DNA of 38,560 nt from Elainella saxicola E1 (GTDB lineage: Bacteria; Cyanobacteriota; Cyanobacteriia; Elainellales; Elainellaceae), in NCBI GenBank assembly GCA_002796835.1, contig LUGL01000029.1, forward strand, positions 47,535 through 86,094. Direction: 5' to 3'. The translations under genes and the position numbers were made by a program. Positions 12,663-38,560 of this stretch are shown here, in pieces (the stretch's first letter is position 1; the number at the start of each line of letters is the position of its first letter). The notes under the pieces were generated by a model, which saw only the letters and a list, made by a program, of their open reading frames with translations, was not told the origin of the DNA and did not search any database.

Positions 12663-13841
12663 TCAAGAAGCCTGGTCTTGCAGCTCAGCCGTGCGAACTG
12701 AGAGCTGTTGGGTAGCATTGCCGCGTCGTAAAGTGACCCGCAGGTTTTTGCCGACGCCACTTCGATCGACCAACATTTGCAGCTGCTCAGATTGGGTGAT
12801 CGCTTGACCATCAATTTGCGTAATCACATCGCCGCGTCGAACGCCCGCACTTGCAGCCGGAGAATTGGGCACGACTCCAACCACTAGCACTCCGGAAATT
12901 TCTGGCAACATCACCGTCGAATTAGGATCGCTATTATTTTGCTTCGCTAAATCTGGAGTCAGGGTAGCAATTTGGACGCCTAAGTAAGGGTGAGTAACTT
13001 TTTCACCACGCGCCAGGGTGGGCATTACTTCTTTAGCTTTGTTAATCGGAATCGCGAAGCCAATCCCAGCAGCATTAGCTCGAATTGCCGTATTGATGCC
13101 AATCACTTCACCCCGTTCATTCAGCAGCGGTCCCCCAGAGTTGCCGGGATTGATCGCCGCATCCGTTTGGATGAAGTCCAGCCGCTTGTCGGGAATGCCT
13201 GCCATGGCGCTCGATCGATTCAACGTGCTGACAATCCCTAGCGTCACCGTATTGTCCAAACCAAAGGGGTTGCCAACTGCGATCGCCCAATCACCCACCT
13301 GCACCTGATCGGAATCCGCCAGGGATGCAACAGGCAAACTACCGCTATCCACCTTCACTACGGCCAGATCGGTAACTTCATCCACGCCCAGCACCTTGCC
13401 ATCTAACCGACGACCATCTTTCAAAATCACGGTAACGCGATCGGCCCCTTCCACCACATGAGCATTGGTCAGAATCGTACCGTTGGCATCGACAATGAAG
13501 CCGGAACCCTGGCCTTGCAGCCGCTCCTCATAGGGGCCTTGTGGGAATCCGCTATCGCCAAAAAAGCGGCGGAAAAAAGGATCGCTCAAGAAAGGATCGG
13601 GCTGACGAGTAATCGTGCGTTCCGTGTCAATTCGCACCACCGCTGGACCCACCCGTTCCACCGCCGCAGCCACAAAACTACTGCTGCGCGAAGGCACTTG
13701 AGCAACCAGTCCCGCCGATCGATCGAGTCCAGTTCCAGTCTGGAGCGAAGCGGCTGCATGTAAAGGAACGGCCCAGCTAGCGGCGATCGGCGCAAACCCA
13801 AGAAAAACACCCAGAAGAATTGCAATGACACACTTGATCAT
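12663..13841 (-). CDS. Deg/HtrA-family serine protease with one PDZ domain
   Basis: This is a periplasmic or thylakoid-lumen quality-control protease of the S1C family. An N-terminal signal sequence ([21 protein letters not shown]) precedes a trypsin-like domain. The triad, counted from ATG 13841, is H128 (LTNAHVV), D158 (TDLAVVKVD) and S235 ([10 protein letters not shown]). One C-terminal PDZ domain includes [21 protein letters not shown] 13841 is preferred over TTG 13856 because it starts just before the signal peptide. Cyanobacteria usually carry three such proteins (HtrA, HhoA, HhoB); I cannot tell which this is. It appears to be monocistronic. Confidence 0.94.
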
Positions 13842-35197: not shown

Positions 35198-35211
35198 CAT
35201 CAACGTTGATG
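35198..35211. promoter_or_regulatory. Perfect 14-base palindrome over the arsR start codon
   Basis: CATCAACGTTGATG is its own reverse complement and its last three bases are the arsR ATG (35209-35211). The inner words ATCAA and TTGAT recur, in the opposite arrangement, at the arsB promoter. This position suits autorepression by ArsR; binding is inferred. Confidence 0.55.
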
Positions 35212-35532
35212 GCTACACCTCCAACTGCAACAGATATCGCGATCGTCTCTGGGTTTCATGCCCTGTCCGACCCCTTGCGCATCCAGATTCTAGAGCTTCT
35301 GAGAACCCAAGAACTCTGTGTTTGTGATTTGTGTGAGGCAACCAGCACATCGCAATCTAAGCTCTCGTTTCATCTCAAGGTACTCAAAGAGGCTGAATTA
35401 GTTCGTGCCCGTCAAGCGGGGCGCTGGATTTACTACAGTCTCGACTTACCCAAATTTGTAGTGTTAGAGCAGTATCTGGCTGAGTTTCGCCGCTTTAGCC
35501 CGATTGTCCCAGCTCGTCCCTGTGAGGACTGA
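35209..35532 (+). CDS. arsR: ArsR-family arsenic-responsive repressor
   Basis: This is a winged-helix repressor of 107 residues from ATG 35209. The classic As(III)-binding motif ELCVCDLC is present with C37, C39 and C42 at the start of the DNA-binding helix, as in E. coli ArsR. Recognition sequences SQSKLSFHLKVLKEAELV and the wing RQAGRWIYYSL follow. It should repress the downstream operon until arsenite binds. A 167-base gap containing a promoter separates it from the ACR3 gene, so arsR is probably transcribed separately or also from its own start. A TTG at 35206 is a less likely start. Confidence 0.94.
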   Translation: MATPPTATDIAIVSGFHALSDPLRIQILELLRTQELCVCDLCEATSTSQSKLSFHLKVLKEAELVRARQAGRWIYYSLDLPKFVVLEQYLAEFRRFSPIVPARPCED

Positions 35533-35699: not shown

Positions 35700-36767
35700 A
35701 TGGCAACAACAGCAACGGTTAAACAGCTCTCCTTCCTCGATCGCTTTCTCACCCTCTGGATCTTTTTAGCCATGGTGCTGGGCGTAGCACTCGGCTATTT
35801 CATTCCGGGCGTGGAGCAATTCATTCATCAATTCCAGGTAGGAACAACCAATATCCCGATCGCCATTGGCCTGATTCTGATGATGTACCCACCCCTTGCC
35901 AAGGTGCGATATGAGGAATTAGCAGATGTCTTTCGCAACGGCAAAATTCTAGGGGTCTCCCTGCTGCTGAATTGGATCATTGGTCCGATTCTGATGTTCC
36001 TGCTGGCGATCGCCTTCCTGCATGGCTATCCAGAATATATGGTGGGCCTGATCCTGATCGGCCTTGCGCGTTGCATTGCCATGGTTGTCGTCTGGAGCGA
36101 CTTAGCAAGGGGTAACACCGAGTACACCGCAGGCTTGGTTGCCTTCAATAGCATCTTCCAGGTCATCTTTTATAGTCCGTTTGCCTGGTTTTTCCTGAGT
36201 GTTCTGCCCCCTCTCTTTGGTCTACAGAGCAGTGTGGTGAATATCAGCATTGCCGAAATTGCCAAGAGTGTGTTCATTTATCTGGGTATTCCATTCCTGG
36301 CAGGCTACTTTACCCGCTTCTTCCTGGTGAAAGCGAAAGGGAAAGATTGGTATCACGAAACCTTCATTCCTAAGATCAGCCCGATCACTCTAATTGCCTT
36401 GCTATTTACGATCGTGGCAATGTTCAGCCTGCAAGGGGAAAAGATTGTGCAAATTCCGCTGGATGTGGTGCGGATCGCCATTCCTCTGCTGATTTACTTT
36501 GCGGCAATGTTTTTGGTCAGTTTCTACATGGCATGGCGGATCAAAGCTGACTATTCCAGGGCTGCCAGTGTCGCTTTCACTGCGGCAGGCAACAATTTTG
36601 AATTGGCGATCGCAGTTGCGGTTGCAGTATTCGGCATCAATTCAGGGGCTGCATTTGCAGCGGTGGTTGGCCCGCTGGTGGAAGTGCCTGCCTTAATTGC
36701 GCTCGTGAATCTGGCGTTCTGGTTTGAGCGACGCTATTTTCAACCGGCTCAATCTAAAAGACTGTAG
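35700..36767 (+). CDS. arsB: Arsenite efflux transporter, ACR3 family
   Basis: ACR3 is a membrane carrier that exports As(III), and sometimes Sb(III), driven by the proton gradient. The 355-residue protein has about ten membrane segments. The conserved Cys is present as C125 in [18 protein letters not shown], along with [31 protein letters not shown] and [14 protein letters not shown]. The symbol arsB follows cyanobacterial usage; the protein is ACR3 type, not the E. coli ArsB type. It is the first gene of the tight operon, and arsC starts 18 bases after its stop. Confidence 0.96.
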
Positions 36768-36785
36768 TATTTGAGGAAAATGACC

Positions 36786-37193
36786 ATGAAGCGAGTAATG
36801 TTTGTCTGTAAAAAGAATTCCGCTCGATCGCAGATGGCTGAGGGATTTGCCAAGCATTTGGGCATGGGAAAAATTGCAGTCACCAGCTCCGGCCTGGAAG
36901 CAAGTCAAGTCAGACCAGAGGCGATCGCCACCATGAAAGAGGCCGGTGTGGACATCAGCGATCAGACCTCAAAGGCATTAGGTGACTTTCAGCCAGAAGA
37001 TTTTGATGTCGTGATTTCGCTCTGCGGCTGCGGCGTTAACTTGCCTCCAGAGTGGTTGACAAGGGAGGTTTTTGAGGATTGGCAATTGGATGATCCCGCA
37101 GAGCAACCAGAAATTTTTCCCAGGGTGCGAGAAGAGATTCGGGAACGAGTCATTCGGTTGATCGAGATCCTGCAAACTACAACAGTCAAGTAG
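36786..37193 (+). CDS. arsC: Arsenate reductase, LMW-phosphatase fold
   Basis: ArsC reduces arsenate to arsenite for export by ACR3. The 135-residue protein has the phosphatase P-loop CKKNSAR beginning at C8 and the redox pair C80 and C82 in ISLCGCGVNLPPEW. The same three cysteines are used by the Synechocystis enzyme, which takes electrons from glutaredoxin and glutathione. ATG 36786 is chosen because GAGG lies at good spacing and Cys falls at position 8; ATG 36780 is too close to that site. The next gene starts nine bases after its stop. Confidence 0.95.
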   Translation: MKRVMFVCKKNSARSQMAEGFAKHLGMGKIAVTSSGLEASQVRPEAIATMKEAGVDISDQTSKALGDFQPEDFDVVISLCGCGVNLPPEWLTREVFEDWQLDDPAEQPEIFPRVREEIRERVIRLIEILQTTTVK

Positions 37194-37202
37194 CTCACTG
37201 CA

Positions 37203-37658
37203 ATGGAAGAACAACCAATCGAATCCGTTTCAGCAAATCTTTGGTGGGTGATTTCTGAAAAACTGGCAGGCGTCAGAAAACCTACCTCAGAGGAAATTGC
37301 AGAACTTCGAGCAGCAGGTATTGGAGCGATCGTTTCTGTAATGGATGATCCATCTAATCTGGATTTGTATCAGCAGGCAGAACTTCCCCACCTCTGGTTG
37401 CCGACGCAAGGCGGAACTGCGCCCAGTACTGAGCAAATTCAGGAGTTGCAACATTTTGTAGATCAGCAAAATCGTTTGGGTCATGGAGTGGCAGTTCACT
37501 GCACCAGTGGTCGACGACGCACCGGAACTATGCTGGCTGCTTATTTAATGAAAACTGGTTCAACCTTCAAGGATGCATTGCAAACGGTTTTAACTGCTAA
37601 TCATGATGTGGAATTGCGAGACGCTCAAATAAACTTTCTCAAATCGCTTACAGATTAA
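37203..37658 (+). CDS. DUSP23-like dual-specificity phosphatase in the ars operon
   Basis: The 151-residue single-domain protein has the Cys phosphatase signature [10 protein letters not shown] with C100 and R106. The surrounding [19 protein letters not shown] and the N-terminal [16 protein letters not shown] closely resemble atypical dual-specificity phosphatases of the DUSP23/VHZ group. D48 or D49 (VSVMDDPSN) could be the general acid. It lies between arsC (nine bases) and arsH (ten bases) in the same operon. Its substrate is unknown. It could act on a phosphoprotein, a small phosphate ester or possibly an arsenate ester, but no arsenic role is established. Confidence 0.85.
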
Positions 37659-37668
37659 TCAACACAAT

Positions 37669-38337
37669 ATGACCAAGTTTGATCACCCACCCAGAATTTT
37701 GTTCCTATACGGTTCTTTGCGAGAGCGATCCTATAGCCGTCTGTTGGCCGAGGAAGCAGCTCGGATTATTCAGGAATTTGGCGCTGAGGTAAAGTTTTTT
37801 GATCCACGAGACTTGCCAATTTACGGCAGCGTTCCTGATACACACCCCAAAGTCCAAGAACTCCGAATGCTGAGCCTCTGGTCAGAAGGACAGGTTTGGT
37901 CTAGCCCAGAAATGCATGGCCAAATTACCGGCATCATGAAAAATCAGATTGACTGGATCCCGTTAAGTATTGGCGCAGTTCGTCCCACTCAAGGCAGAAC
38001 ATTAGCGGTAATGCAGGTTAGCGGTGGGTCTCAATCTTTCAACGCTGTCAATACCTTGCGGATTCTGGGGCGATGGATGCGGATGTTCACGATTCCCAAC
38101 CAATCTTCTGTGGCCAAAGCTTACCAGGAATTTAATGAAGACGGCACGATGAAAGAGTCACCCTATCGCGATCGGGTTGTGGATGTCATGGAAGAACTCT
38201 ATAAGTTCACGCTTTTGTTGCGAGATCAGGTCGATTACTTAACCGATCGCTATAGCGAGCGAAAAGAGCAAGGCTTCCAGGAAACCATGGGCGACATTGG
38301 TAAATCAATCAATGGGGTCAATCTGAGCCAAATGTAG
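37669..38337 (+). CDS. arsH: ArsH, NADPH-dependent FMN reductase
   Basis: ArsH is a flavodoxin-fold FMN enzyme linked to arsenic resistance. Characterised members oxidise trivalent organoarsenicals or reduce quinones and metals with NADPH. The 222-residue protein has the FMN phosphate loop [19 protein letters not shown], followed by [37 protein letters not shown] and [24 protein letters not shown]. These are all ArsH hallmarks. It is the last intact gene of the operon. Its 3' end is followed within about six bases by the fragment of another arsenic-related gene. Confidence 0.95.
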
Positions 38338-38342
38338 GAACA

Positions 38343-38528
38343 ATTTTTGAAGAACACAACAGGGATTGCTGCGATGCCTCGCAGGCCAAAGTTTGGGTCA
38401 CTGATCCAGATGGCAACCGTTGGGAGATTTTCGTGGTCAAGGTGGCAAACACAGCTCCAGCCCATAAATGTAGGTTCATGCAACCCTCAATCGCCAGTTC
38501 AGCCAATGAAACCTTGCTGCGATTATGA
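38343..38528 (+). pseudogene. arsI: 3' remnant of an ArsI/CadI-like glyoxalase-fold gene
   Basis: Read in frame from 38343, the sequence gives IFEEHNRDCCDASQAKVWV then TDPDGNRWEIFVVK, followed by a non-conserved tail to TGA at 38526-38528. The vicinal Cys pair and the WVTDPDGNxWE metal-ligand motif match the C-terminal part of ArsI, the C-As lyase, and of CadI-like proteins. The N-terminal two thirds is absent: upstream the frame runs into arsH and meets a stop at 38301-38303, and there is no plausible start. I infer an arsI that once followed arsH and lost its 5' part by deletion. Loss of the normal C-terminus after EIFVVK is also possible. Confidence 0.75.
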
Positions 38529-38560
38529 GGTAGATCATATTTCCCTGGCCAAAACTTTGG

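Follow-up and report, generated by a model that had tools for sequence, protein, structure and literature searches.

Directly downstream of arsH in the ars cluster of Elainella saxicola E1, the DNA at 38340-38525 is, judged by its sequence, the C-terminal part of a gene for an ArsI/CadI C-As lyase. It is very probably a non-functional pseudogene fragment of a cyanobacterial-type arsI, which would have been left by a deletion or rearrangement and have drifted since.

The ars cluster and the identity of the remnant

The window, by which we mean the whole stretch of 38,560 bases analyzed, corresponds to bases 47535-86094 of a contig that is 178,987 bases long, in a genome of 8.7 Mb and 284 contigs. 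The end of the window is not the end of the contig, and the junction between arsH and the remnant is located inside the latter. Models of NCBIfam and Pfam assign the cluster the gene order arsR-acr3-arsC-phosphatase-arsH. The features are as follows:

35206-35532, + strand: arsR-type repressor gene (NF033788 HTH_metalloreg, E 6.2e-28)
35700-36767, + strand: acr3 arsenite efflux gene (TIGR00832, E 9.6e-138, above cut-off)
36771-37193, + strand: arsC arsenate reductase gene (TIGR02689, E 1.1e-61, above cut-off)
37203-37658, + strand: dual-specificity phosphatase-like gene (Pfam DSPc/PTP families; also in relatives' ars clusters)
37669-38337, + strand: arsH, intact organoarsenical oxidase gene (TIGR02690, E 2.5e-118, 392.9 bits versus a cut-off of 292.25)
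38338-38346, no strand: left junction between the arsH 3' edge and mid-arsI (arsH stop ends at 38337; arsI similarity from 38341-38346 in the closest genes)
38340-38525, + strand: very probable arsI remnant, C-terminal part (NF041414, E 2.4e-12; DNA similarity; alignment; start-codon scan)
38524-38539, no strand: palindrome TATGA-N6-TCATA, putative Crp/Fnr-type box of the downstream methyltransferase gene and right edge of the remnant (exact box in 9 of 17 relatives' loci)

The dual-specificity phosphatase-like gene is also present in the ars clusters of several relatives, with two copies in G026, and one copy plus a partial second one in G008.

The frame at 38340-38525 translates as TIFEEHNRDCCDASQAKVWVTDPDGNRWEIFVVKVANTAP, followed by 22 further residues. 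When this translation was compared with the ArsI/CadI models, hmmscan gave a match to positions 84-124 of the 147 positions of NCBIfam NF041414 (ArsI_CadI_VOC), with 46.7 bits and an E value of 2.4e-12. A fragment would not be expected to reach the curated cut-off of 116 bits, and the remnant scores below it, so that it does not qualify as an ArsI by family score. Pfam gave no match for the remnant at E 0.1, and none for its first 40 residues at E 0.01. The substrate-binding Cys pair (98, 99) is present as DCC at 38364-38372, and KVWVTDPDGNRWEIFVVKV is the same as in four of the five closest intact genes. These results confirm what the first-pass annotation had proposed, namely an ArsI/CadI stump that is without the N-terminal half and retains the Cys pair and the Trp-Glu motif.

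The same annotation had placed the stump directly after arsH and described it as fused to the 3' flank of this gene. The position holds, as the distance from the arsH stop codon to the start of the remnant is at most 10 bases, but because this stop codon (38335-38337) is in another frame than the remnant, the two are adjacent and do not form a fusion protein.

The similarity is also evident at the DNA level. The nearest intact genes are those of G008, G009, G021, G012 and G026, with 77-82% identity in a 40-column alignment. Over 38341-38525 the remnant is 78%, 75% and 74% identical to the intact arsI DNA of G008, G009 and G026, respectively (overall range 73-78%), and it is 75% identical to that of G021 across 38346-38519. 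The remnant extends slightly beyond what was initially described: after a frame shift, the arsI C-terminal tail is matched up to the terminal Cys-Cys codons at about 38520.

Alignment to the solved ArsI of Thermomonospora curvata (PDB 5C4P) demonstrates that Cys98, Cys99, Gln103, Lys105 and Glu117 are retained, and that the metal ligands Gln/His8 and His65, as well as Tyr38, belong to the missing part. Glu117 is therefore the sole one of the three metal ligands present in the remnant (residue roles as given in excerpts of PMC12607644). Thus, the remnant shares with the ArsI C-As lyases (NF041414; NsArsI of Nostoc sp. PCC 7120; T. curvata ArsI) the C-terminal sequence, the Cys-Cys site, Gln103, Lys105, the Glu117 ligand and, at the DNA level, the Cys-Cys tail. 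In contrast to them, it is without the N-terminal half containing two metal ligands and Tyr38, its frame is shifted, no start codon precedes the motif, and the stop codon is lost.

Lesions and edges of the remnant

The open frame at 38304-38525 comprises 74 codons, and the first ATG, GTG or TTG is located at 38433, past the Cys-Cys and Trp-Glu motifs. A nucleotide alignment with the five intact genes revealed a one-base length difference near 38461-38466 that shifts the frame of the remnant, and revealed also that the arsI stop codon is gone. With the late start codon and the frame shift, there is no translatable open reading frame across the conserved part. Hence, the DNA shows both features of an arsI pseudogene fragment, i.e., similarity to intact arsI DNA and disabling lesions. 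Single ambiguous bases are present in the source contig at positions 10096 and 11363 of locus L002, within 1.5 kb downstream of the junction. Given these nearby bases, the frame shift of one base may stem from a sequencing error, which would leave the missing 5' half unexplained.

In the 38 codons compared, there are six remnant-specific sites at which the five intact genes agree, and five of these changes alter the amino acid (Thr to Arg, Tyr to Asp, Leu to Ser, Asp to Ala and Asp to Asn). The uncorrected pN/pS values, obtained on 38 codons and without a significance test, are 0.13-0.16 for the five pairs that include the remnant versus 0.03-0.08 for the ten pairs of intact genes. No change is found in the Cys pair or in KVWVTDPDGNRWE. 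Because pN/pS is much lower than 1 and the motif downstream has not changed, these data speak against old decay; constraint on the remnant would have been lost recently, or may not be wholly lost.

The left edge of the remnant is located within 38338-38346, and its right edge, at about 38519-38526, coincides with the start of the palindrome TATGAGGTAGATCATA (38524-38539). Inspection of the left junction, by eye only, did not reveal microhomology beyond about three bases. The palindrome has the geometry TATGA-N6-TCATA, which we take to be that of a Crp/Fnr-family site. Among 17 loci of relatives, 9 have an exact copy of this box before the homologous methyltransferase gene, and the other 8 are without one there. 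In the source contig the box is found at L002 10059-10074 (window 38524-38539) and at 12739-12754, with the latter preceding a RIC/YtfE-type iron-sulfur repair gene. Between the methyltransferase and RIC genes lies a gene encoding cyclic-nucleotide-binding and Crp-type helix-turn-helix domains, which is split by an ambiguous base. This gene changes frame at L002 11363, and both of its parts are in one frame in L078, pointing to a local base uncertainty in the assembly. Together, the boxes and the Crp-type regulator gene look like a small predicted Crp/Fnr-family regulon.

The methyltransferase, Crp-like and RIC genes are also neighbours in G015 and G009. Since in these two genomes the methyltransferase module occurs apart from arsI (G015 is without ArsI, and the arsI of G009 is located on another contig), the remnant forms an island of roughly 180 bases, flanked by two unrelated units. 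The downstream methyltransferase was considered as a possible ArsM and rejected by the models, its best NCBIfam match being to another family, with 72.6 bits versus a cut-off of 155. A frame joining the remnant to the methyltransferase (L002 9882-10907) was rejected as well, since an ambiguous base lies within it and the methyltransferase gene is preceded by a box and has an ATG of its own.

ArsI and ArsH in the genome and its relatives

The first-pass annotation had supposed that the enzyme was lost, and indeed no intact ArsI was detected elsewhere in the genome at E 0.01. A weak match on contig 131 (22 bits) was rejected, since the protein, of VOC type and 121 aa long, does not have the Cys pair. 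A candidate ArsM, the best match to the ArsM model NF008823, was also rejected, since it reaches 93 bits versus a cut-off of 263, and none of the best 25 models for this protein reaches its cut-off. The genome contains an ArsP_1 (PF03773) permease above the Pfam cut-off, whose gene carries an ambiguous base and for which we do not claim MAs(III) export. Other pieces of the relatives' arsI neighbourhood (arsR2, the MFS gene, arsJ and GAPDH) were not found in the window plus 9 kb downstream, where the matches were confined to the genes of the cluster itself, apart from cross-matches to its ArsR and Acr3.

We then determined the distribution of both proteins in 98 genomes, including that of E. 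saxicola E1, counting matches above the family cut-off. ArsI was found in 16 of the 98 genomes and ArsH in 45; 12 of these 45 also contain ArsI, and 33, E. saxicola E1 among them, do not. All four same-genus genomes searched contain ArsH above cut-off, and none contains ArsI at E 1e-6. As these four genomes are without ArsI at this threshold, the gene may have been ancestral to the genus or may have arrived with the cluster.

Gene order was analyzed in named loci, for which we took the best 80 of 109 relatives obtained from a scan with C-terminal motifs only; E. saxicola E1 itself could not be recognized among these. In 8 of these 80 arsI loci, arsH is present inside the fetched flank (at most 6 kb), and in all 8 arsI is located upstream of arsH on the same strand. 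Among the whole-genome relatives having both genes close together on one contig, arsI is upstream in G008, G009, G026, G048 and G067; the contig of G008 is, judged by its length, the same as that of one of the eight named loci. The sole exception is G012, where arsH is upstream and arsI follows about 1.7 kb downstream, past another reading frame and a second arsR. As a separate observation, the arsH beside the above-cut-off ArsI of G009 is broken into two frames (L055 3749-4406), and a second arsH above cut-off is present elsewhere in that genome.

A comparison of the 3' flanks of arsH in relatives had been proposed as a check on the junction. Among the arsH loci compared, none but those of E. 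saxicola E1 itself carries the remnant. The usual position of arsI, upstream of arsH, does not agree with a truncation within the usual arrangement. Nor can ArsI be called the usual partner of ArsH, as had been stated, considering the 33 of 45 ArsH genomes without it and the presence of arsH in only 8 of the 80 named loci. ArsI and ArsH rather look like alternatives that sometimes coexist. According to excerpts of PMC6205960 and PMC5258700, ArsH is an MAs(III) oxidase with MAs(V) as its product, and it is listed, alongside ArsI and ArsP, as an enzyme of MAs(III) resistance; Nostoc PCC 7120, the source of the ArsI studied, seemingly has no ArsH (excerpts of PMC5258700).

For 78 of the 80 named loci, the N-terminal half of ArsI is part of the same tblastn alignment, and the other two are broken genes. 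Since the scan that yielded these loci used C-terminal motifs only, C-terminal halves on their own would seem to be unusual. Of 386 sampled genomes of the phylum, 13 match at E 1e-5; the remnant has the shortest open frame (74), followed by G350 (102), with the other 11 having at least 148. A literature search, in which papers were judged by their title and the start of the abstract, did not yield a paper on arsI remnants.

The two broken genes differ from the remnant in kind. The arsI of Desmonostoc geniculatum HA4340-LM1 (L149 5907-6180) has lost about 183 bases (about 61 codons) internally, without a change of frame; the G350 match (L068) is the same gene, as both its protein and a test stretch of 100 bases are identical. 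Like the remnant, this gene is broken, and the part kept past its deletion starts at the very Phe codon where the clear similarity of the remnant starts. Unlike the remnant, it keeps the N-terminal start, and no arsH is present in its 12-kb locus. The arsI of Oscillatoria sp. SIO1A7 (L161 4538-6135) is another broken cyanobacterial arsI, but in this case an insert of about 1.2 kb, with frames that match the transposase domains DDE_3 and HTH_33, interrupts the gene. It might be imagined that the Cys-Cys C-terminal half of ArsI is left repeatedly, two distantly related cyanobacteria having their breaks at one and the same Phe codon; the half might be kept, or put to new use, as a small peptide that binds arsenicals, or the codon might be a recombination hot spot. 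We regard this as highly improbable; two cases spotted post hoc do not make a hot spot.

Origin and meaning of the remnant

In the history that we favour, a deletion or rearrangement would have linked the middle of arsI to the bases that directly follow the arsH stop codon, with loss of the start codon and N-terminal half of arsI. At its other end, close to the arsI stop codon, a second breakpoint would have joined the arsI piece to the promoter region of the unrelated methyltransferase gene. Later drift of the scrap would account for the frame shift, the loss of the stop codon and the amino acid changes in a once invariant motif. As the remnant is located downstream of arsH, either the rarer gene order or a rearrangement is needed; a deletion from just past arsH into arsI, starting from a G012-like order, would be the simplest history, with a rearrangement of the commoner order as the alternative. 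The remnant would then make no ArsI enzyme, and the remaining cluster would provide inorganic arsenic export together with oxidation of trivalent methylated arsenic by ArsH.

The first-pass annotation had instead regarded arsI as the partner of arsH in this cluster, and its loss as a switch to inorganic arsenic export only. It is true that arsI appears to have once adjoined this arsH and that no other ArsI was detected. However, excerpts of PMC6205960 describe ArsH alone as detoxifying MAs(III), ArsH without ArsI is the commoner state, and all four same-genus genomes have ArsH and no detected ArsI, which makes this reading unlikely. A restriction to inorganic export does not follow, because the intact ArsH is itself of a type described as an MAs(III) oxidase and most ArsH genomes do without ArsI; ArsH of E. 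saxicola E1 is predicted to still detoxify methylated arsenic, and probably does so. The remnant is a real arsI relic of an ordinary kind, from which too much biology had been read.

That the junction is an assembly chimera, with an intact arsI present in the cell, we consider very unlikely. The 284 contigs and the two ambiguous bases close to the junction would favour such an error, but the junction lies well within a 179-kb contig, the N-terminal half was not found (E 0.01) in an assembly rated 99.99% complete, and the remnant-specific changes are not expected of a misjoined intact gene. It is extremely unlikely that the fragment is kept as a small Cys-Cys arsenical-binding protein. Although the unchanged Cys pair and KVWVTDPDGNRWE, and the same C-terminal part kept in the internally deleted gene of D. 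geniculatum, would be in agreement with it, the absence of an ATG, GTG or TTG before the motif, the frame shift and the motif changes Tyr to Asp and Asp to Ala argue against it.

In surveys based on motifs or short reads, a scrap that retains the Cys-Cys and DPDGN motifs could be miscounted as an arsI gene. As a pseudogene fragment, the remnant would record a further loss of ArsI from a cyanobacterium in which ArsH is retained, which fits the view that the two enzymes are alternative defences against MAs(III) that sometimes coexist.
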